From Tubiluchus corallicola (taxonomy: Eukaryota; Priapulida; Priapulimorpha; Priapulimorphida; Tubiluchidae), in the NCBI GenBank assembly GCA_030141605.1, contig JAQGDQ010000497.1, positions 1 to 64,000 on the forward strand: 64,000 nucleotides of DNA. Reading direction: 5' to 3'. The translations under genes and the position numbers were made by a program. The notes beneath the pieces were generated by a model that ran no database searches, had not been told where the DNA came from, and saw nothing but the letters and a program-made list of their open reading frames with translations. Every line of letters begins with the position of its first letter. Positions within the stretch are counted from its first letter, which is position 1. Shown in pieces: positions 8,908 through 64,000 of this stretch.

Positions 8908-9078
<171 letters not shown>

Positions 9079-9377
9079 CGAGTTGAAATTTCGCGCTATT
9101 TTCCATTCTTAAATATTAAAAAAACAAATAGGCGCAAATCATAAGCTTAGACACTGATTGGTGATAAGCAAATAAGCAACACAAATTCTTAAAATAAAAT
9201 CACCCACTTAAGCAAAGACATGGTTTTTATTCAGATACAACATCTGCAACGTTTCGACACAGTTAAGGTCATGTATCACTCAATATGTAAATTTACAATT
9301 TAGTATTTTGTTTTGTTTGCTTGTTGTAATGTTGATTTTTTCACTGTATTTTTATTTAGTTGGATTGTTGCGTAAAC

Positions 9378-9435
9378 ATGGCCTTAAACAATGTTGAAAC
9401 GTTGCGAGTGTTGTGTCTGACATGTCTGTTCTTAA
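9378..9435 (+). CDS. Tentative first exon (signal peptide) of the FN3 gene
   Basis: ATG at 9378 opens a short stretch with an N-region ending in Arg followed by the hydrophobic run VLCLTCLFL. A GTATGT donor follows at 9436 and leaves phase 1, which is what the first FN3 exon at 14556 requires. An in-frame ATG at 9360 would add six residues. The open frame continues to 9848, but the distal part runs into a TA microsatellite and looks non-coding. Frame agreement has a one-in-three chance of being accidental, so this is a proposal only. Other exons may exist between 9.4 and 14.5 kb. Confidence 0.3.
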
Positions 9436-12400
9436 GTATGTGCTCGCTGTTATTTCTACTTAAAGTTACGTGGGAATTACAATTAGCAGATCAACTATTA
9501 AATTTTCTGAAGCAGCACCCCACTAATTTTAGCTACGAGCCGCGACTGGCTTATTTCGTACACAAAATATTTACAGCAAATAAGAGACTATGTAATGAGT
9601 TAAGTTTATACATAAAGTCATTTAAGTTTATACAAATATGTCGCAAGACTTTTTATTTACATCATAGTGGTACGTATCTGTGTAGATTCAATGCTTTTAA
9701 CCCTTTTGCCAAGTTCGTGCCATTAACCGGTTCCGACTTGCATATTTTCGTCATCACCACGTTGTTAATCGTCTATAAATTATGTTTTGGTACATGTGAT
9801 TATATATATATATATATATATATATATCCTATATATTATAAGATATAGTCCATTTAGTAACGTAAAAAATTCAAATACGCTCAGTCTTGATTCCTGTCAC
9901 AGGCCTAGGTAATCCATTCTCTCTTCAAGTAGATGACATCAGTTGCTGGATGATTGTTGACTTACATAACTGGTATCTACCCAAAACCATAAAGTTACTA
10001 TAGAGGTTAAAAACACGAGGCGGGCCTCAGAGAGCTTAGTTCTTGCCTTATAATTCATTATTATGATCTGAATATCAAGATTATCATTAATGATACAATA
10101 CAAACAGACAATTAATTAAATTTTGATACCAAACGGTGATATAGCTGGGTTGAATCAGGCACCATTAGGTCTCCGGTGGTCAAGGCAATCCAAAGTTCAG
10201 CTCTTACAACTAGCCAGTTCCCAATTTTTTGACATTTCCTGTATTTCAAGCTAATACCAAAAGCATGTCAAAATACCAAACACATTAATTATCTGTTAGT
10301 TTATACCATCATAGATAACCTTCTAAAGTTATCAGCCAACACCGTATCTTAAAGAGATCAAATAAATTAGCCATAATTCAAGGCTGGATCGAAATCTATC
10401 CTATAGACTGCAGCCTGGTGCCCTCAACCTTGGGGCTCTAGGACTTGAGGAGACTGCCCTGCTAACAAATTTTCAGATACACGCCTGTATTCTTTTGAAC
10501 AACTCATTCAACTTAACATAAATTTTCAACTTTAAAAAGGTAGGCGGCCAAGCATTTTGTTTGAGAAAAGAACCCTTGTGTTTGACATAAGCCCCCCTCC
10601 TGTTTAACGGGTTCAAGTGAGTTTAAAGATGGCTGCGTCTGCATCCAAGAGGTCGAATAAGGTCATAATCCGGCCTGCCATGATTACAAATTGCGTCGCA
10701 AATATTTAATTGAAACATTTTGGTTGAGTCGCCACTAACTAGCTACGAAACGAGATTAACAATAAAGTTCTACGAAAACTAGTTTACGAGAAAATAAATC
10801 TTTAACATAACAGACTCGTGAATTTTCGATCAAACCGTTTTCTTTTCATCTTCATTAATTAACTTAATTAGATGAAATAATTGTGAAAACGTTACAAGGT
10901 TCTGCATGAGCTGGTGCTGGACACTGCTACAAACACAACAACTCTTAGGCCTACTTTGGGATGAACATAACACTATTACAGTTTAAATCTCTTTATACCC
11001 CCCTACTTTCAGACTGCAGAAAAGTTTGGCACTCAAAAGAGGGGCATTATAAGAAATGTCTACGGCCATATCACGTTGAAAACACTGGTTCTCGTCTGAT
11101 CACCGAAGTTAAGCAACGTAGAGCTTGGATGGGTGACCGCCCAGGAATACCAGGTGCTGTAGGCTTGCGGGATGCCCACTCGGCACTAAGCGGAGGAGCT
11201 GCACAAGCAGCCAACGGCTAGAGGGCGGAAGAGGTCAAGTGACCCAACAGCCATGTGTAGAGGAGTAAACCTTCCAAATCAGGAGTGGAGCCTCGAAGGT
11301 GGACCAGTGCAGCATGCTCACTGACTCCGGCAGCTCCTGCAGCCAACCTGGTGCCAAACGTGTTGCTCCGCTTTCCTTTGGACTACACCAGGGAGGGGGG
11401 TTCCTGTTGTCTGGGCAACTCAGGATCTCCATACACCTTGCCCAGGCGTGCGCCCTAGAGAGGCCACTCCACACTCCAGTGGTTGAAGGATCGGACTGCT
11501 CAGCCACAGTCGACGCTGCAGCTCCATCAACGTGATCAATAACTGACTCACTTGGAGCACACTCCATTGTCTTCCGAGACAGAAGGATGCCAACAACAAT
11601 AAGAAAGCTGAATGTATTACGAAAGAGACGGTTATGTTGGTACAGGGCGTTTACACAAATTTTACAACTTCGCCAATCCAAAAATTACGAAAATTTTATC
11701 AACCGGACATCCGGACCAAGTTAAATTTTTATTATGGTAATTCCCGGCTTACTAGCATAAGAATTAAAATAGCTCCGTAAACATCTAAAAAGTTATAAAA
11801 CCTTCGCACCAGCGCATGTTAACAATATCGATACGTGAACGCAGTTTCTCTCTTATCAAAGTCCAAAGTAACTGCTTCGATGGTTGTTTGACACCATGCA
11901 CAGGCCTATATAATCGCTAGTCATTGACAAAAATACATGTACATGCCTGTTTATTATATTTACTGTTGTGACAGCTATTCGGAAAATGACACTCGTGCTT
12001 GGATGTCAAAGAAAAGGAAAAGCAAGAAGCACCACACGGTTTGGGCTACAATGTGCATTTTGTCGTAAGTATTATTTTGATTTATGTAAAGATGCTGACT
12101 TCCTGGTTATTAAGAAAGCTATGTACAGTAAGCTAGTATGTAGAAAATGGTGAAAATTTACACAAAAGAATGCGAAACAAAAGAATACGTTTCTAATATT
12201 GAATTCTATATAATAGCCATACGCCAGCTGTGGCTAATATTGAGGGTGATCTAGCTTAGTTAGTAAATTTCTTGAGTCTGAAAAACCGAAGTTTTTCCCA
12301 GGTGTAATTACTAGTGCAGCGGCTCGGAATGGAAGAGATTTTGGTTCGAATCCCAGCCCGGTTTAAACACGTTTTTCTAATTTATTTTAGCTATATAAAT

Positions 12401-14924
12401 TAATAATTTTATATATACCATGCACTGTTTTGGTGGTTGTATGAAAAATGTTTATCTGCCTAAGAATCGTAATGCCAGCATTGCTTACGTTAATGCTTAT
12501 GCTTGTGTTCGTGCTGAAATGTGTTTATATTTACGTTTGTGTTTATGAGCATGTTTGGTCAAACGACGAAAGGCCAAAAATGTCATGATAAATTCTGCTA
12601 CTGCAACTAGCACTGCGAAATTCATGTCGGTTCTCAATTAAGCTACAGTTACACTTTAATTCAATTCAGTTCAATGCACATTTTTATTTTAGACTTAAAA
12701 TTCATAAATAATTAATATATATTAATTAGTTTTTATGTGTACTTTAATTTTTTATGAATTTTAAGTCTAAAATAAAAATGTGCATTGAACTGAATTGAAT
12801 TAAAGTGTAACTGTAGCTTAACTGAGAACCGACATGCATTTCACAGTGCTAGTTGCAGTACTATAATTATAAGATATTACGGCTACACATCAAAACTTAT
12901 CGTTAAACTTAAACTCAGGTAATACACATTCGATCTTCACGGAAACGAAACGCACGTGCGGTGTTGCGGCAGATGCGGTAGATCCGGCAATGAGGGTCTG
13001 TAATGAAAGCTAAGCTCTATCTAACATGCTATAAGAACATGATTTTCTTTTTTCAGTTCTTCTTTTATATCTCCACGGAGTTGACGGCAAAAACTGCTCA
13101 GGTAATAATAACCTACGGTATCTTAGGTTTTCTTTCAAGCAACATTATTTCAAATCCGTACAGGCTTAAATTCTGAATAGTGACGTGTTTTGGTACATTT
13201 TTAGATAAATCCGAGTGCTTGTTTATTTAGACTATATTTTTTTATCGCATCATAAGGAAATTCGTATAATAGCAAGTGAATACACATGCAAAATGACGAA
13301 AACAATAACTTTCAGACACTTAAAAGGAAAAAACGGAATTCTATTAAAGTATATCCCGAAGAACTTTCCATACAAAGTTATCTACGCTTACCCGTCTGAA
13401 AGGCTTATGTAATTGTAAAAGAAAATAATTTAAAATATTCGCACTAGTAAAACTGCACTGTGTTGCCATCCCAGTATACAACGGTGATTTGCCAAAATTC
13501 ACCTTTTTGATGTTGTATATATGCATGTATGTAGTTTATTGACTAAAACAAGTTACATGTATACACGAGGAACGAGGTAAATGCCACAATCGAGACATCA
13601 GCGATTTTAGTCCAGATTGTCACTTTATGTACATTTCCTACTCAAAGTTATAGCATTAAAAACAGTGTTATGCATACAAGGTACATCAGCATAAAAGTTG
13701 CAAAATTTCATAACATATTATATAAGAAGAAGTAGGGTGCTCAAAGAAGTGAGTTAAATCAGCAAAGTTTACATTGTCGTAGCGGCTTCTAATATCAGAT
13801 GTTAGGGGGCGTGTCTGTATAACGTGTTTCTCAGTTTGAATGTCCCCACAAGGACATAACCTATTTTCCCTTGGCTGTCTCGCCCATCTACCCGTTTCTA
13901 TCCGCAGCCTATGTGACTGAAGACGCATTCTTGTGATGCTTCTCCCATGATTATACATAATATAAAATAATTAAAATTTTGCATACTTTACGAAGAGTAC
14001 TACGTTTATTTTTTCAAACTTTGCTCAATGCTATCTAAACTTATTTCAAGCGTCAAAATGGTTGCGCCTAACGAGATGGTCGTGGGAGTTTTTAATCTAC
14101 AAGTTTTGTGTAGCGTTACTGGTAACGCAAACACTGTATACAATAAAACTGCATGTGCGCGATATAAAATTTAAGGACAAATTTTAGGCTTTATTTACGA
14201 AGAGTGTTTACTTGTCCATTAAAATAAAAATCGCAAATTTGGTTTTGCCTGTTTAGTGGTTGTCTTAAGTACCTTAATGCATACATACTTATTTGCTTGG
14301 TTGACTAATGCAACAGCTGTATGTACATATATTACAATCTATTTCTAAACAATAACTTTTGCTTACGTAGCCGTGTTTATATAGGTCTATTTTTTATACG
14401 TTTATAGGTTTATAACAGCTAGAGCATATTAGACTTGTTTCTAAATAAGAGAACATTTATTAAACTTCAGCTTGCGTTTATACTAGTATTCGAATCTCAT
14501 ACAAGCTGCATTGTATATCAGAATTGTATGTAACTAATAATGAATTTTTTGAAAGCCACGGACTTAGATCCTGTTGGAAAGCCAGAACTGACGTCAAGTC
14601 TGGAACATCCTTCCGACTATCCCAATAATACAGTCACCCTCAACGTACAATGGCAGGTAGTGTGACTATTGCATTACGTAAAATATAAATTACAAAAAAA
14701 TTTGGTAATAATACATACCCTGACATTCTTATATTCTTATATTAACTTATTTTAGTTTTTGGTTTTTTTAATCCGTCTATTCATGCACTAAAAAATTAAG
14801 TTGCATGTACATGTCTGATGTAAATACGTATGTTCGAGAAAATGATGATGATGACGATGACGACGATAACGGTAACGGTAACGATAACGATAACGATAAC
14901 GATAACGATAACGATAACGATAAC

Positions 14925-17900: not shown

Positions 17901-20900
17901 GCTTGCCATTGCACAAACTGTGGTTAGTTTCTGGCGTAAGCAATACCTGTGTTCGGTTGTCGTTAATTAACTTTTTGAGGTAATTATTTAAATATAAGAA
18001 ACAATTGTTGAATTTTATAGGCAAGAAAATGTATATTTTGGACAGTAAATTAAAAATAAGATTGAGTCTAAACAATCGTCCGGTTTTCTTTTAAACCGAA
18101 TATTTACACTGAATTTGCAACTGTCACTGCAGTATAAAGCCTTAAGAAACACAAGTGGTGTTGGTAGCAGTGATGGTGGTGGCGGTGACGAATTCAGTAA
18201 AATCAAAATTTTGACATTGAAAGAAAAGGGTGGTAATTTCAAGGGCAAATTAAAAAAAGAGACAGTCATTTCATTGAAATAAAGAGTAATTTTTAGCTAA
18301 TCAGGCGTTATGATTCAATAGAAGCAGTAATGACCTTTAGACAAACATTTGATGTAATTTCAAGGTCAAATTATGGAGTGGCAGCTTTCATCAATAATTC
18401 TTTGTTACATCATTTGTCTATTAATACAAATGTGAAAGTCATGTTTCAGGTTGTAGATGAATCACTTTGTAGAAAAAGAATAAACAACTATACTACATAT
18501 TTGCACAAAACTGAAAAGCGTTTATTAGACTACATACACATATGTAGAATGACTGCTACACTGAACACTGAGAACACGAGTGTCCTGCACTGATCACTGA
18601 GAGTTAGATAGTAAGTAACATGAGTATCACGACTTCTGCACTGCACCGAGAGTGAGAGTTAGACAGTAACATGATTAGCACGACTGCTGCACTGCACTAA
18701 GAGTGAGACAGACAGTGACTAGAAGTAAATCCAGTCAGTATATATAGGTATAGGTAATTATGTAAGCATGGCTTCACAAAAACCATTACTGTAAAATAGG
18801 GAGAGATCCAGTGAATATGCATACTCACTGGACCGTACATTATACTAGGGGTGAGTTTAGCTAGTAAAATGTAAAAGGATTAGTTAATAGATGGCAGCAC
18901 CTAAAAATATACAGTTACAATTTCCACAACAAAAACATTAACTAGCCATTATTGATTCTAATTCCAGGCGATTAACAATTAATAACTGTTCAGCTAATCC
19001 AGAACAGGATGAATACGATACCGGTTTAGTAGATGGCTCTAAAACTCACTTCGATATAAACATTCCATCCGAATATGCAAGTACGGAATACGAATATCGT
19101 GTGTGGGGAGCTACCAGCGGGGGTGAAGGAACGCAGTCAAAACAACAAGGAACACAGTGGTCTCTTTCAAAAGGTATTATTGGACCAAAGTAAAAACTTC
19201 TAGCTGCAAAACTCGTTCAATTTCACTTCAGATTTTAAAAAAACTTAATGTGAAAGCAGCTGTAATAAGGAGAATGTTTACTTTTTGACTTTTCAAAGTA
19301 AAAATTGTACATGCGTAGTTTATTGGAAACGACAGTAAGAAAGGGTTAAGGAACAAATCACATGATAGGTATTTGTTTTACTTTGATGGAATCGGATATG
19401 CACACACTTGAGTTTGACTTGACTTGATTTAAACTGCATTTATTAGTACACAGAGAATTGAAACAAAACATACGTGAACAGGTGAACTCATGAAGTGGAT
19501 GATCAATGATACTCACGAAGTGGATGATCAATGATACTCATGAAGTGGACGATCAATGATACTCATGAAGTAGATGATCAATGATATTCACGAAGTGCAT
19601 GATCAATGATACTCATGAAGTGGATGATCAATGATACTCATGAAGTAGATGATCAATGATACTCACGAAGTGGATGATCAATGATACTCATGAAGTGGAT
19701 GATCAATGATACTCATGAAGTGGATGATCAATGATATTCACGAAGTGGATGATCAATGATACTCGTGAAGTGGATGATCAATGATACTCACGAAGTGGAT
19801 GATCAATGATACTCACGAAGTGGAAGATCAATGATACTCGTGAAGTGGATGATCAATGATACTCACGAAGTGGATGATCAATTATTCTCACGAAGTGGAT
19901 GATCAATGATACTCACGAAGTGGATGATCAATGCTACTCACGAAGTGGATGATCAATGATTCTCATGAAGTGGATGATCAATGATACTCACGAAGTGGAT
20001 GATCAATGATACTCACGAAGTGGACGATCAATGATACTCACGAAGTGGACGATCAATGATACTCACGAAGTGGACGATCAATGATACTCATGAAGTGGAT
20101 GATCAATGATACTCACGAAGTGGATGATCAATGATACTCATGAAGTGGATGATTAATGATACTCATGAAGTGGATGATCAATGATACTCATGAAGTGGAT
20201 GATCAATGATACTCATGAAGTGGATGATCAATGATACTCATGAAGTGGATGATCAATGATACTCATGAAGTGGATGATCAATGATACTCATGAAGTGGAT
20301 GATCAATGATACTCATGAAGTGGATGATCAATGATACTCATGAAGTGGATGATCAATGATACTCACGAAGTGGATGATCAATGATACTCACGAAGTGGAT
20401 GATCAATGACACTCACGAAGTGGATGATCAATGATACTCACGAAGTGGACGATCAATGATACTCATGAAGTGCATGATCAATGATACTCATGAAGTGGAT
20501 GATCAATGATACTCACGAAGTGGATGATCAATGATACTCATGAAGTGGACGATCAATGATACTCATGAAGTAGATGATCAATGATATTCACGAAGTGCAT
20601 GATCAATGATACTCATGAAGTGGATGATCAATGATACTCATGAAGTAGATGATCAATGATACTCACGAAGTGGATGATCAATGATACTCACGAAGTGGAC
20701 GATCAATGATACTCATGAAGTGCATGATCAATGATACTCATGAAGTGGATGATCAATGATACTCACGAAGTGGATGATCAATGATACTCATGAAGTGGAC
20801 GATCAATGATACTCATGAAGTAGATGATCAATGATATCACGAAGTGCATGATCAATGATACTCATGAAGTGGATGATCAATGATACTCATGAAGTGGATG

Positions 20901-23900: not shown

Positions 23901-26900
23901 GGTAAACTGGACGGGACCTCAAGGCAGGCGGCATGACACCAGCAAATTACGAGGCGCTTGCGGCAGATCGAAGCAACTGGAAATCTGCTGTTAGGACAGC
24001 CATTAACAGAGCGGAGAAAACGAGGGAGGAAAAACAAGAGGATAAAAGGACTCGCAGGCACCAGAAAGATGCCCTACCTCATCCGGATGAAACAGCCTTC
24101 CAATGTGTAACCTGCAGCCGGAACTGCCGCTCAAGGATCGGACTGCTCAGTCACAGTCGACGCTGCAGCTCCATCAATTTTATTAATAACTGACTCTCTT
24201 GGCGCACAATCCATTGTCTTTCGAGACAGAAGGATGCCAACAACAACAACAACAATATCCGTGACGTATTTTGGAAGGATACGCGCGCTTGCATAGCAAA
24301 ATCCATAGCATCTGCAATAGCATAGTAACGTAGCTATGTTAGGACGCATTGTTATGTAACAATAGTAGACGCGCTCTGGAAGTTCGTGGCATTATTAAAG
24401 GGGTAGGGGACAGTTTAAGAAAACGATCGTAACAAAGACGCGCTCTGGAAGTTCGTGGCATTATTAAAGGGGTAGGGGACAGTTTAAGAAAGGGATCATA
24501 ACAAAGACGCGCTCTGGAAGTTCGTGGCATTATTAAAGGGATAGGGGACAGTTTAAGAAAAGGATCATAACAAAAAAACGAGAATAAGGTCTAACGTCTT
24601 TTATTAAAAAGAAAGCCAACATTTTCAATCACATAAGAAAATGATCGCCATCGCTAGTGTCACGTTTCTGTCCTGCCTCAACACCTTTTGCACACGCGCA
24701 AATGCAAAACCTGTAATCCTGTAGCTGTTAGACTAGGTATTGGGTTTCCTGCCAAGGGAGAAGTCGCATGCCTCACAGAAAGTATGATGATCAGGCATCA
24801 CGTCAATCTTTTCTACATGTCTTACTGCTTCACTAAACTTGGTAAAGTCGTCTGTATACAATCAAACATCTTTATTCCGCCTAGTTTTGGGTAGCAAAAC
24901 TTGAGGTTATGGCGAGTTTAGCATTATAACGAGGTGTATTAGTACATTCATGTCCGTGCAAATACACGCATTTTGTTTTGCAAAAAATATGGGCGGTTGT
25001 TGGTTGACGATATAACGGAGGGCGTTATATAACAATTTTATTACAGTAACTTTCGGTAACCTTTTCTGTGGTTCAAAGATTAAATATTAAACAACAGTAG
25101 GACAAGAAAATGGGTACCTGGAGTACTTTTCAGAAAAATCGCCTTGAAAAATAATATTACAGTACTTTACAACATTTTTATGCACATACGTACTTGCGTT
25201 GAAAGGAATTTTTGTTTGCTTTTATTTTAAATCTCCAGCAATACTGTTCCGACGTCGCCATTACGCAAACGTAAATCGAGAAGAAAATGCAATGTTAAAT
25301 TATGTCACAAAAAACTTTCCATGCAAATCTATGTTACTTAGCATTTCGCTTACCTGCTGGAAAGATTTTTGTAGCCAGAAATGATAATTTAAAACGTTTG
25401 TACAAATTGGTAAAATGCCACTGACTCACCCTTCAGGGTGCGCCACTGACTATCCAAAAACGTTTTTTAATCTTCTTGACAAGATACAGTCATTTAAAAT
25501 TTTACTTAATTAGCAACATGTATGCTACGAATGTTCTGACTATTTTTTCAACTTTACTTAATGTTATCCAAACTTGTTTCAAATTACTTATCATCAAAAT
25601 GGCTGCGTGTGACGATCGTCGGGGCAGTTTAAATTTACACGTTTTATACAGCGTTACGGTCGACACAAACCGTGTATGCAAACGGGCAGTATAAAATTTC
25701 AAGACGAATTTTTTAAGCTTTATGTAAATGGAGGGTTTTCTTGTTCTTTGACACCTTAAACTTACAGGCACAAGATTCCCATTTTACACCGTTATTTTAG
25801 GCATTACGAGTACGAATTCATAAACTACAATGAGAACGAACATCTTGAGGAAGCAGTCACATCAACTGAAGTTACATTTACATATTCGCACGGCGTCCGT
25901 CCTTCGTCAACGTATTCCCTCAAAGTTGCGTTTGTGAATGACGCCGGTAGAGGACCTTTCACGGATCCACTGCGCGCCACAACACCAGATTACGGAGCAG
26001 ATGTTGGAATCATCATGGCGTGCATTCTGGGCTCTTTGATAGGAATTGTACTCATTTCTAGTCTTGTATTTTTCTGCTGGAAGTAAGTCCGATTTTATTC
26101 AAGTTATTCGCTGCAATGACATGCACTATTCAGTAAATGAATCATGTATGAATGCATGCAAATAATGTATTTTTACTTAACTCTTACTGCAGAAATACTT
26201 ATTACTCACTTTTTACTTACCTTATATTCAGAATCTCCAGGCTATCAATTAATGCTGCAATGAATCCATAATTATTAAATTATAAAGCACAGATTCAACA
26301 AAAATTAATTAATGAAATATGAAAAAAATGTAAGCCAATAACTTTCAAATTAAATTTGAACCTATGTCCTTTTCTTACTCGAGTATAATCAAAGTTTGCA
26401 AATCAAAAATCAAAGACCATTAAATTAGTTTGAAAAATTAATCTACTAGATTATTATTCTGGTGGTGCTAATCTATTTAGTTGCAGAACTGAGCTATTAT
26501 TTTGAACTAAAGGACTGCCTTGCAGCCTTTGTAACACAAAGACAAGGACAATATTTGTTCACTGTCGCTCTGACAGCATTAGTACTGACTGCTATTTAGC
26601 GATTTACACTTTAAAAAACGGTAAAGCTGCAACACACAAATAAAAAATAACATGTGAGGCATATTCCTGGCATTGACAGTCTTTAGCCTTGAGCTCCAGA
26701 CTGTGTGGTAAGCCGAATTCTAGATTATTCGGCCACCCAAAACAGGGCAGATGTAATTAGGGAGTTGGGTGGGCTAAAGTGGTTGACTTCTAATCTAAAG
26801 CTATTTGTTTTAAATCCAGACATTTCTTTCTTTTCCATCGAATTTGTTTCGAAATTTATATATTTTTGGTGAATTCATAGCAATAGAAAGCCACATCTTA

Positions 26901-30743: not shown

Positions 30744-56149
<25,406 letters not shown>

Positions 56150-58656: not shown

Positions 58657-61600
58657 GTATGCATCAGAGCATAATTAATGTATAATTAGTCATAATTGCA
58701 AGCGCTCAATGAGGTGTGAACCGCGAATAGCTGTACTATATATGTACTAGTAGTAATACTAATAGTAAAAAATTCTTAGACTATTAAATTAATATTGTCA
58801 TATAATAAAGTTGTCTTCTGCCTGCTTACCATGTGTCGCAGTGAATGTGTTGAAGTGTATTAGCCAAATTCCACAAAAGAAACAATTCGTATTCAGAAAA
58901 TCAATTTAGATTGAAAGCCAATCTGTAATGTAACACTCAAACTTAAGCGAGTAATAAGGGTTCAGAAAAGTTTATTGCGATAAGATATCATGAATATTTA
59001 CAAAGTGGCTTTTACAACATTTACTGTTAGTGGGGGAAGGGCATTGGTCAAATCAGAAAAGTTAAAACAATAGCTGTATAAGTGTTTAAATACTATTTAA
59101 AAATATCATTACGTCCACTTGTTGGTCATTGACTAAAAGAAAAAAATGGAAGGATCAATATTGAGTTTTGATTCCGACTCTAGAAAGAAAGAAATTAAGA
59201 AACTACTTTGTACAACGAGTTAAACAAAATGGCAAGAAATAAACTTAAGTTAGATTAAGAAGTTGTGATTATTAAAACTAAAGCATGTTGAAAAATTAAC
59301 ACCTAAAATCAAATTACCGAAACAGAACAAACGGCAATATTAAAATAAAAAATTAAGATTCTTAAAAGAGATAAGTTATGGAAATCTTAATCATCATGAA
59401 ACAGGGAAATAATGAAAGTAAATGATAATGATAAAGTAAATGAAAATGCTCAAAGGCAATTTAGTGTCCCCAAGTGCAACAGTAATGCCACTAGACAACA
59501 GCTCTTTAAAAGTGAGTTTAACCATAAGTAGAGCCTCCGATTTTCAGTTTCAAAATTGACCAACCTCCTCTTCAAAGAATCATCAATTCTATTTCAGTTT
59601 TGCTTCACAGAAATTAGAAGCTACATGGCTCTGTAGCTAATATTTATCATCAAGTTATATGATGTGCAATAGATTGTACCGTATTTTCCCGTGTATAAGA
59701 GACCCTTGTGTATAAGAGACCCCTTCAATTTTTAGGCAAAAATTCTGGAAAAAAGTTTTTTCAGACGGACATTTTTAGAGGGTAAAGTACAACTTTTTTC
59801 AACTCAGTGCGGTACTGAAAACAAAATAAAACCAGTTAATGTGTTGTAGAAAAAGAGTACTGGTATATATTAAAGTGCGTACCTGCAAACCTGTAACAGG
59901 AAAAGAGAAAACGAGGAGATAATGCCTGTGTCACGATGCTTGTATTGCTTACAACCGCTTCATAGTCGAACGCGACACGCAAAACAGTTGTAGAGCACTT
60001 ATTTCTTTAAAATCATTAGTGTCACAATTTATGCATCTTATTGAAAAGACTTACTCCCATGTATAAGAGACCCCCTATTTTTAAAGTGAAAATTCTGAGC
60101 AAAAAAGGGTCTCTTATACACGGGAAAATACGGTAATTAAAAAAATTTTTTATATGAATTAAGTCTAGCATGTAGTCTATCAGGTATAAAAAGTTACAGA
60201 ACAATATCCTATCATATTCGTGCAAATCATCGGGAAATTCTCTGGGTAGCTGTCACAGGCATAACATTGTGTTTGTGTGAACAGGGGAAACCTTTCTACA
60301 AATACACTGCTATTCGTTACGATCTCGCACTAAAGAATTTCTCATATTTCTCTTGACAACTGCAAAAACAAACTGAAAATAGGAACGCAAGTTGCATATA
60401 AAATAAAACTCGGAGAAGAACTTCTATCAAGGTTGCGAAAACTGCTTAGTTTTGCCGAAAAGTAACAAGTCAAGTCAAGTCTGTCTCTAGTACGCTGTAA
60501 ACTTGCAGAAAAGTTGGAAATTGGGCCAATTCCATTTTTCATAGTTATTTCCATTTTTGTGAATTTTGTACGTTTCCCCGCGATCGCAGAAAATTGGAGG
60601 CCCTACATAAGAGTTTAAATGATACAGATTTAAACCTGACAGACAGAGTAATGCTGCTATGTAACTTCTCTCTCATTGGGATGAAGTCATAACAGCAGGA
60701 ATTTAATTTAACAAAATTGATGTGGAGTAAGAATTGAGGGATGTAGAAATTATCGCAGTTTATGGCAACGTAGGTCAAAATTCGGGAGACGAAAAAAGAA
60801 TATGCAGCAAAGAACGTGTGTATATCATGACAAAAGCAAAGTTCACAATCCATTTTTCGACAGTAATTGTGTTGCTCATTTTAACCGATAAAATTTATTT
60901 ATTGAAAAATATTTATTTATAAAATATTGAAAATTGTTTTGTTTATTTTCAGCGGAACTGTTGGTGGACAAAGCCATGGAGTTGCGCTTTGTTGGTGGAG
61001 TTTACGGTGGAAACATTAAACCGGCACCTTTCTTATGTCTCATTCTGAAGATGTTACAAATACAGCCAGAAAAAGACATTGTGGTTGAGTTTATTAAAAA
61101 TGAGGATTTCAAGTAAGTTTTTGTGTATAATTCCATACTAAATGCATATGTGCACTCACTGCATTTTTCTTTAAATACAAAGCTGTTATGATCTCAAAAA
61201 TTTGAAGTTTTGTCTGAAAGTGTTTTGTTGAATGTGTTTAAAGTTTGATGTACACCAAATCCATTTTTTATGTCTTATATTCTTGCAGTTTTCATTCTTC
61301 AAAATGCATTTTGCCTATTTGATCCATTGTAGATATCTAAAGATGCCTTGCTTACATGCATCAACAGTATGTCAAATGTTAGCTAGAGCCTGTTTGCTTC
61401 ATTTAATGTTTGTCTTACATAAACACTATAGATTTTATCAATTTTTTTTCATAATAATGGAAAAATTGCTTCATCCAAATCATTGATTTGCTTTTTTAAC
61501 CAAACGGCCAAATTTTACTGTAATAAAAGCTAGAATCATTTCTCATAAGCTTTAATGTCTGAGAAGAAATGGCGTGAAGTGATAACACTTGCCATACTTT

Positions 61601-63295
61601 TTTCTACTTTTAACATTGTGTCATAGGTACGTAAGAGCACTGGGTGCATACTACATGCGACTGACGGGAAGCTCGATGGATTGCTTTAAGTATCTTGAGC
61701 CACTCTTGAATGATTACAGAAAATTACGGAGGCAAAACAGACAGGGTGGTAAGTATAAATGCCCCACATTGTGGGTTTGATATCCAAATTTTCATATTGA
61801 CATGCTTTGGTTGTGCACATACCGTATATATTCGCATATAAGCCGAATTTAGAACTATAAAATACAATACTGAAATCAGGGGGTCGACTTATATGCGCAT
61901 GAAACAAAATGAACACAAGGACAGACACTAATGCCAATTTTCCAGCCACACATTTTCATCGCTACCTGACTCTTTATTTGGTTGTGTGTCACCAGTGGTG
62001 TATTGGAGGGGGATCGTGGGGGATCGCCGTCCACCCACTTTTTTTTAGAAAAAATTCACATTTCAATAAATGTCTGCTTTTTGTATTCATAAAAGTAAGC
62101 ATTTTACATCTTTATAGTAAAAAATTTCTATGAACCAAAAATACCCAATTAACAAAATGTGACAAAAAGGGATCAATTTTGTTGACTGGGTATGGAGTAA
62201 AATTAGACAAGTTGATAGTCGGCTTATATACGGGTTTTTGCAAAAACTGGCCATTTTAAAGCAGTTTTAGGGGGTCGGCTTATATGCGATGTAGGCTTAT
62301 ATGCGAGTATATACGGTAGTTATTATTACTGTAAACAGGGAGAGCGCTTGGAAGTGTGGGGTCCAATTAAAACATTGTTAGCGCGGCCCTCTCTCACACA
62401 AATGCTGCTGAACAGTATGACACTTTGGACATATTTAACGAACTACGGGACTTTATATTTCAAACTTTATGCTATAGAATCTGATTAACAGCACTCTTTC
62501 TGTGTTGAGGGTTTGAATATCGTGCACAAATTAGTAAAATTAAAATGCAGTGATGCTATAACTAATGCATATAAGGCTTACCAATTGTACCGTTTTTAAA
62601 AAGGTACATGACAACAATAAACTGAAATTACATAACAAATAAACAAATGAGTGGCAAAAACACATTGAAACATGGGTATACAGTGACAGAATGAATAGAT
62701 TTCACTGCCTTCGTGCACGCTACACACTCATTAATTCATGATAGCATCCTCCGTCTGAGCATGTGCGCTGGGCCCCCTCTTGGCATGGGGCCTAATTTAA
62801 ACAAATCTGGCTAAAATTAACTTAAAACAGGCCCTGACTGTAAGTTATATTATTTTGGTATGTATTAGTAATTAAAAAAATAAATAATTTTTATAACACT
62901 TTCAAATATTTTATGTGATTTGTTTTAAACCAACAGTTTCAGGATATCATGCCTTTTTGTCATAACTGTAAAACTGAAAAAGGCAGATTTTCGAATATTT
63001 CTTTTGAAAGCTTGTTTCTTTCGGGACCATACAGTGGTGAAAATGACCATACAAATGTCACTAGCTATTACACCATAGTTAAGAGGCACAATTATAAAAT
63101 GCCTGCATATCCATTGCAGAAGACTGTATTTATGCATTATGCATTCTTTGTTTACAACTTCACACAAACGCCGTGCTAAATTCATGTCTTTGTTCTTTTT
63201 TATTTGCAGGATTTGAGATGGTTCACATGGATGAATATATAGATGAACTTCTACGAGAAGAAAGAATGTTAGATATTATTTTACCCAGGATTCAG
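58527..63295 (+). CDS. PRPF38A: Pre-mRNA-splicing factor 38A, 5' part (runs off window)
   Basis: PRPF38A joins the spliceosomal B complex before activation, where its folded N-terminal domain contacts MFAP1 and ZMAT2-type partners. Exons are 58527-58656, 60953-61112, 61627-61748 and 63210-63295, giving 166 codons with correct phases. MANRTVKDAVTVKGTNPQYL and the following EKIIRTRIYDSRYWKEECF are nearly identical to human. The visible part covers almost all of the PRP38 domain, ending LDIILPRIQ. The RS-rich C-terminal exons lie beyond 64000. The ATG is supported by the conserved N-terminus. The gene diverges from ORC1. Confidence 0.97.
59679..60133. mobile_element. TA-flanked MITE (CCRTATTTTCCC family), copy 2
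   Basis: CCGTATTTTCCCGTGTATAA to TTATACACGGGAAAATACGG, TA on each side, 455 bp, in PRPF38A intron 1. Nearly identical end blocks to the element at 41572-42006; the middle parts differ. Confidence 0.88.
60953..61112 (+). CDS. PRPF38A: PRPF38A exon 2
   Basis: After TTATTTTCAG the exon encodes AELLVDKAMELRFVGGVYGG, then NIKPAPFLCLILKMLQIQPE and VEFIKNEDF, ending AA|GTAAGT. It joins exon 1 in phase 1 and exon 3 in phase 2. It follows human residue for residue with few changes. Confidence 0.97.
61627..61748 (+). CDS. PRPF38A: PRPF38A exon 3
   Basis: The exon encodes YVRALGAYYMRLTGSSMDCF and YLEPLLNDYRKLRRQNRQG between TGTCATAG and GGTG|GTAAGT. Human reads YVRMLGALYMRLTGTAIDCY here. Confidence 0.97.
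61822..62316. mobile_element. TA-flanked MITE (CCGTATATATTCGC termini)
   Basis: CCGTATATATTCGCATATAA mirrors TTATATGCGAGTATATACGG, TA duplicated, 495 bp, in PRPF38A intron 3. The subterminal block GGGGTCGGCTTATATGCG is repeated. Confidence 0.83.
62330..63200. other. PRPF38A intron 3 remainder
   Basis: A GC-richer block (62330-62400 and 62740-62800, with GGGCCCCCTCTTGGCATGGG) looks transposon-derived but has no recognised ends. The rest is AT-rich with nothing identified. Confidence 0.35.
63210..63295 (+). CDS. PRPF38A: PRPF38A exon 4
   Basis: After TATTTGCAG the exon encodes GFEMVHMDEYIDELLREERM then LDIILPRIQ, ending CAG|GTGAGA in phase 0. No further exon was found before 64000. Confidence 0.95.
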
Positions 63296-63814
63296 GTGAG
63301 ATTGTCAAGGCCATTATATTATGATTTTGTGCAGCCTTGATGTTAACTGCTACAACCAGAAATTAATAACCATTGCGACTTATCCGGGTAATGACGAAAA
63401 ACCTTAATTTAAGCAGCGGAAATGCTAAATATTGTGATCCAAGTCGAAATTTGACCTAGCACCTCAGTGACACTTGCTGTGCCATTTGAGCAACCTAACT
63501 CAACTAGAGTGCAGGTCTCAACTTTCTTGATAAGCTATTTGTATTTAACTTCCAACTGTGATAATTAACAGTTAATTTCTGAATAATTAAGAAATCAGTC
63601 ATTTTTAAGCACGTTTCTGCTGTGTGACAGTAGAGCAAAAATTAATTGCATTTTTTTTCATTATTCAAGATTGCATTGGTACGTGTAACAAATAATAGTA
63701 AAACATTACATGTTTTCAAAAAGTGCTGTATTTTATTAAATTACATTTTTGTGCGATTACAGCTAGTTAACAAGGACTTACTATGAAAGATAAACTGGTA
63801 TTCTTGCATAGCAT

Positions 63815-64000
63815 AACACTGTTGTTGTTGTTGTTGTTGTTGTTCGTCCTTCATAGTCGAAGAGGACCATGACTTCATTCTGACATCATAGGATGGGTAC
63901 GGAGGTGGCTTATAAGCCCGATTCTTGCTGAGAACCTCCTCCTGCAATGAGGACATGAGAATGGTGTATCTTGATAGGCATTGCGTTGTCTGTCTTTTCT
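63815..64000 (-). mobile_element. Retroelement 3' end with (CAA)n tail
   Basis: The minus strand reads ATGGTCCTCTTCGACTATGA, then AGGACGAACAACAACAAC, a (CAA)n tail after a short conserved end. It continues beyond the window. It is a different family from the 24 kb LINE but has the same tail type. Confidence 0.55.

Follow-up and report, generated by a model that had tools for sequence, protein, structure and literature searches.

A putative 5S-headed SINE insertion with a 3′ tail matching the coding end and short 3′ UTR of a likely LINE

In the window analyzed here, a 64,000-nucleotide stretch of Tubiluchus corallicola DNA, ten open reading frames were compared with Pfam, and six had matches at E values up to 0.01. 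Two of the matched pieces belong to the PRP38 family, and others are ORC1/Cdc6-like AAA and lid pieces; a further two are of the fibronectin III type and fall below the Pfam curated cut-off. The gene content is eukaryotic and probably that of an animal. The ORC1-type pieces are located on the minus strand at 32195–39963, with the 39757–39963 segment matching ORC1 in PDB (E 5.6e-23) and a lid-domain match at 32195–32431; the PRP38-family pieces are located on the plus strand at 61586–63337. The human orthologues of the ORC1-type and PRP38-family pieces are likewise neighbours.

A composite element at 11 kb and a likely LINE at 24 kb (LINE A), whose 3′ ends are similar, were delineated as listed in Table 1.

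Table 1 Components of the 11 kb element and of LINE A
Feature	Position	Strand	Basis
Left copy of the putative target site duplication, ATAAGAAA	11049..11056	+	Exact 8-nt repeat, one base 5′ of the 5S head
Head derived from 5S rRNA, lacking 11 internal positions	11058..11165	+	Rfam RF00001
GC-rich body (59% GC) with no identified relative	11166..11485	+	Composition
LINE-derived 3′ tail: 19 sense codons, stop, ~44-nt 3′ UTR with stem-loop, short CAA run	11486..11598	+	Match to 24133–24252
Right copy of the putative target site duplication, ATAAGAAA	11599..11606	+	
LINE A: 3′ end of the ORF, 95 codons open, C-terminal zinc-finger-like motif, 5′ end uncertain	23906..24190	+	Translation
LINE A: stop (24191–24193), ~44-nt 3′ UTR with stem-loop, (CAA)6 from 24238	24191..24255	+	Sequence, folding

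The head of the element was matched by the Rfam 5S rRNA model RF00001 with 76.2 bits (cmscan, E 2.3e-14; gathering score 38). The alignment spans model positions 1–120, with a gap of 11 positions just 5′ of GGGUGACC and matched sequence on both flanks of the gap. A preceding sequence-only reading of this DNA had described a 5S head with a deletion of about 12 nt, and the full-span model match bears this description out. The head opens the element at its extreme 5′ end and reads in the sense direction, as is characteristic of SINE3 elements, and it is the sole match at the gathering threshold in the window. A permissive scan of the whole window (E up to 1) yielded 18 matches, none of which was a further 5S piece. 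The 11 deleted positions probably fall in the region of the intermediate promoter element (IE) of the polymerase III promoter, which comprises boxes A, IE, and C; a copy or a family carrying this deletion may therefore not be transcribed in the manner of 5S genes. The head appears lophotrochozoan-like.

The body differs in composition from its surroundings. The GC content is 59% in the body and 52% in both the head and the tail, compared to 37% in the 500 bases on either side. The best-fitting GC-rich segment of the 9000–13500 region is 11085–11592 (57% GC), which lies inside the ATAAGAAA brackets, and when the window was scanned in steps of 20, no 320-nt stretch was richer in GC than the one starting at 11161. 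The body had been described from the sequence as GC-rich and unrecognised, which agrees with these values, and neither the head nor the body has a second copy within the window. Blastn found no match to the body in plasmids and phages, and pattern scans of viral and genome contigs gave no relatives, both being misses that say little for collections of prokaryotic, viral, or plasmid sequences. Protein scans of viral and genome contigs returned 72 and 210 peptide-pattern stretches, respectively, of which tblastn confirmed none. With an observed/expected CpG ratio of 0.39, the body stands below the head (0.83), the tail (0.71), and the window as a whole (0.74).

The ORF of LINE A terminates in CVTCSRNCRSRIGLLSHSRRCSSINFINN, which is followed by TGA at 24191. 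The copy holds just the last 95 codons of the ORF; these matched no Pfam family above the cut-off and gave weak sub-threshold matches, one of them to a C2H2 finger (E 0.2). No reverse transcriptase was identified beside LINE A or beside the second end described next, with Pfam covering the 95-codon end of LINE A, and no target site duplication of at least 6 nt was found for LINE A in the stretches compared. A second LINE-like end, on the minus strand at 64000–63820, has a zinc-finger C-terminus (CPHCRRRFSARIGLISHLRTHPMMSE), a stop at 63877–63875, a UTR of ~30 nt, and (CAA)n. It differs from LINE A in sequence and shares its layout, with 10 of 21 finger residues alike when counted by eye; tblastn found no relatives of it in phages and plasmids, a miss that says little in such collections. 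We take the zinc-finger-like ends of both elements to resemble the C-termini of LINE ORF2 proteins. Given this resemblance, the (CAA)n tail, and the layout common to the two ends, LINE is the likely label for the 24 kb element. As described in an excerpt of PMC13295347, most of the reptilian Bov-B LINEs studied have (CAA)n tails, so that the tail of LINE A offers a hint of Bov-B likeness rather than a classification of its clade.

A third stretch, 45954–45987, aligns with the tail of LINE A over 34 nt at 94% identity, much of which is CAA repeat. The tail fragment within it, GAAGGATGCC(AAC)n at 45960–45984, is located directly 3′ of a long GA repeat and is perhaps a very short 5′-truncated insertion.

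The tail of the 11 kb element is closely similar to the end of LINE A. Positions 11486–11605 and 24133–24252 align without gaps and are identical at 109 of 120 positions (E 5.25e-36), in line with the ~90% identity over ~112 bp estimated earlier; the alignment extends to 11605, into the CAA repeats of both copies. Thus, the element has the 3′-end homology to a LINE that characterizes stringent SINE/LINE pairs, with a partner that is itself a likely LINE. The order of sense codons, stop, UTR, and CAA repeats is the same in the two tails, and the reading frame is intact in both. The shared coding end reads RIGLLSHSRRCSSINVINN followed by the stop (TGA, 11544–11546) in the element and RIGLLSHSRRCSSINFINN followed by the stop at 24134–24193 in LINE A. 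The sequence-only reading was thus right to place the last codons of the LINE in the shared part, which holds 19 codons and the stop, although the peptide it gave, CRSRIGLLSHSRRC, begins a little upstream of the match: of the codons for C, R, and S that precede RIGLL, only a single base lies within it. The overlap with the ORF presumably arises because the 3′ UTR is only ~44 nt long, whereas the tail is ~113 nt long.

Within the shared codons, the two copies differ by 5 nucleotides in 4 codons, with a single residue change (V for F). When 5 random changes were placed in 57 nt, at most one residue change resulted with a frequency of 0.0097 (50,000 trials); this test supposes that changes are uniform and independent, yet three of the four altered codons adjoin one another, and the comparison is small (n=5 differences, 4 of them clustered). 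The pattern is no more than suggestive, and it suggests that the two tails diverged mostly as coding sequence, between LINE lineages. Because the differences are mostly synonymous, the tail was probably donated by a sister lineage of LINE A; LINE A would then be related to the donor without being the donor itself. The proposal that the SINE captured coding sequence of its partner holds insofar as the tail reaches coding sequence, though LINE A is probably not the direct donor. The further statement that the pair gives a direct view of its own formation goes too far, since shared 3′ ends are normal in stringent SINE/LINE pairs and a short UTR forces overlap with the ORF.

TTTT commonly serves as a stop for polymerase III, and the TTTT in LINE A would accordingly have to be altered in a SINE. 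This TTTT (24178–24181) corresponds to CGTG in the element (11531–11534), and there is no TTTT in 11058–11605. Four of the 11 differences between the tails are located within 7 nt at the TTTT of LINE A (P 0.066), and the two sequences are compatible with either TTTT or CGTG as the older state. We considered depletion of TTTT as an adaptation to polymerase III and rejected it, keeping it as an idea only: 66% of shuffled sequences also lacked TTTT, so that composition suffices. Likewise, 83 of 1270 stretches of the element's length in the window contain no TTTT.

A stem of 5 or 6 bp (UUGUCU with AGACAG) is present in the minimum-energy folds of four tail slices, with the loop UUCG in LINE A and UCCG in the SINE. 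The fold z-scores are modest, at –2.09 and –1.92 in the two LINE slices and –1.21 and –1.82 in the two SINE slices. In a further pair of slices, the SINE folds differently (z –0.55) and the LINE retains the hairpin (z –1.58). A hairpin is likewise predicted for the second LINE end (z –1.62). In stringent LINEs of zebrafish, the ORF2 protein reads a 3′ stem-loop, as described in an excerpt of PMC4176376. The predicted stem-loop of the tail fits recognition of this kind, as a compatible feature rather than proof of the mechanism.

The head, body, and tail are together bracketed by an exact 8-bp repeat, ATAAGAAA. A repeat of at least 8 bp occurred in the same positions with a frequency of 0.0011 when the local flanks were shuffled (20,000 trials). 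A flanking target site duplication is a further SINE3 trait; the putative duplication found here is short and abuts, in its right copy, the A-rich end of the tail; the first base of that copy is also readable as the final A of the CAA run. The position of the repeat around the whole unit favours one retroposed unit over chance neighbours. We consider it highly probable that the element arose by a single insertion of a SINE3-type (5S-headed) SINE whose tail came from a LINE with a short 3′ UTR. Evidence for one unit does not establish a family, and the single copy would represent a candidate family.

Under this explanation, RNA polymerase III would transcribe the element from its 5S-derived internal promoter, and the resulting RNA would bear the 3′ end of the partner LINE, that is, its last 19 codons, the short UTR with the stem-loop, and the CAA repeats. 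The LINE ORF2 protein would recognize and bind this tail, and target-primed reverse transcription would then insert a copy, with the 8-bp duplication as its trace. The tail would extend into coding sequence on account of the short UTR of the LINE, and was probably borrowed to use the copying enzyme of the LINE. We infer the identity of the partner, the donor probably being the sister lineage of LINE A.

The main alternative to a single insertion is chance juxtaposition, in which a 5S pseudogene and a 5′-truncated LINE copy landed ~320 bp apart. Only a single copy is available, as this alternative would have it, and the similar tails at 24133–24255, at 64000–63820 on the minus strand, and, as a fragment, at 45960–45984 indicate that tails of this kind are not rare in the window. 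However, chance neighbours would not readily account for the 8-bp repeat around the whole unit, for the same orientation of the two parts with 5S at the 5′ end, or for a sequence between them that is richer in GC than the head and tail, which in turn are richer than the flanks, and that is unsurpassed by any other scanned stretch of 320 nt. The repeat and the GC step together favour a single insertion and lower the standing of chance juxtaposition, which we consider improbable.

Single insertion could also have produced a chimeric retropseudogene, made once when the enzyme left its LINE template for a further RNA and moved from there to 5S rRNA, and never amplified. Template switching is the origin proposed for HaSE3 (excerpt of PMC3272025), and such an event needs no family and accounts for both the target site duplication and the tail. 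The kept frame and the mostly synonymous differences do not discriminate here, as they fit a young one-off chimera and a young family member equally. Yet three templates would be required in one event, and we regard this origin as very improbable. The least probable of the alternatives, in our judgment, is an internally deleted, SIDE-like LINE, the head and body of which would be the 5′ region of a LINE with a 5S promoter. Some SINE 5′ parts do come from the 5′-ends of RTE or BovB (table in PMC3747384, in excerpt). A LINE-derived tail would also be expected from such an element, but scanning the window at E values up to 1 gave no further 5S match. To our knowledge, no LINE 5′ end bears a 5S head, which further counts against this alternative.

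The preferred reading, a SINE3-type insertion, can be compared with known systems as these are described in excerpts of the cited papers. 5S-headed SINEs with LINE tails include DeuSINEs, OS-SINE1, and Ped-1 (PMC3747384), and those with LINE-related 3′ ends in Lepidoptera include HaSE3 (PMC3272025) and PxSE5 (PMC8010984). HaSE3 of Helicoverpa armigera, with its partner HaRTE1.1, resembles the element in having a 5S head, a body, and a tail from a LINE with a short 3′ UTR, and two H. subflexa copies of the HaSE3 type have target site duplications of 19 and 8 bp. The shared tail of HaSE3 is 43 bp at 82% (measured on HaSE1, which has the same 3′ region), compared to 120 bp at 91% here; HaRTE1.1 ends in TGA repeats rather than CAA repeats; the tail here reaches coding sequence; and for HaSE3.1 itself a target site duplication was not found, in contrast to the putative 8-bp duplication here (PMC3272025). 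PxSE5 of Plutella xylostella, with PxLINE1.1, likewise combines a 5S head with a LINE-related 3′ end and a short LINE 3′ UTR, but has a 43-bp tail at 84% and ATGT repeats (PMC8010984). AmnSINE1/SINE3, OS-SINE1, and Ped-1 share the 5S promoter and LINE tail with the element, but have vertebrate hosts and the partners CR1, RSg-1, and BovB (PMC3747384). The non-autonomous LTR elements Ajax and Cassandra also contain a 5S-derived promoter in a mobile element; however, their 5S sequences are inside the LTRs, in contrast to the single 5S and LINE-like tail found here (PMC10886601). The tobacco TS SINE has ~100 bases in common with an RTE LINE, and under the protostome heading the table of the 2013 review gives at least one pair, with a tRNA head (PMC3747384); the lepidopteran 5S-headed SINEs were added by later papers (PMC3272025, PMC8010984).

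5S-SINE/LINE pairs being otherwise known, what is slightly unusual in the present element is the inclusion of the end of the LINE's gene in its copied tail. Such overlap is expected with a short-UTR LINE, and earlier pairs may have the same feature, unremarked. A partial literature search found no published statement on SINE tails containing LINE codons, which is not evidence of absence. If the element belongs to a family, it adds one 5S-headed SINE and, the UTR being short, would make it possible to test cleanly whether coding sequence forms part of the tail signal read by a LINE protein. A more far-reaching reading, which we regard as possible but doubtful, is that of a new SINE3 family with a required recognition tail that is partly coding in the LINE and that, in its SINE version, has lost the TTTT of LINE A, at which polymerase III would halt short of the tail. 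If true, selection would act on one stretch in two ways, on its zinc-finger codons in the LINE and on its role as recognition RNA in both elements.

Other repeats were also observed in the window. A 25-bp minisatellite begins at 19334, with 110 in-register placements at 25-nt spacing for a 300-nt reference. An inverted repeat at 206–636 and 2326–2756 has 431-nt arms that are 100% complementary and separated by 1689 nt; its right arm overlaps a simple-repeat tract, and the inverted repeat may be partly repeat-driven.
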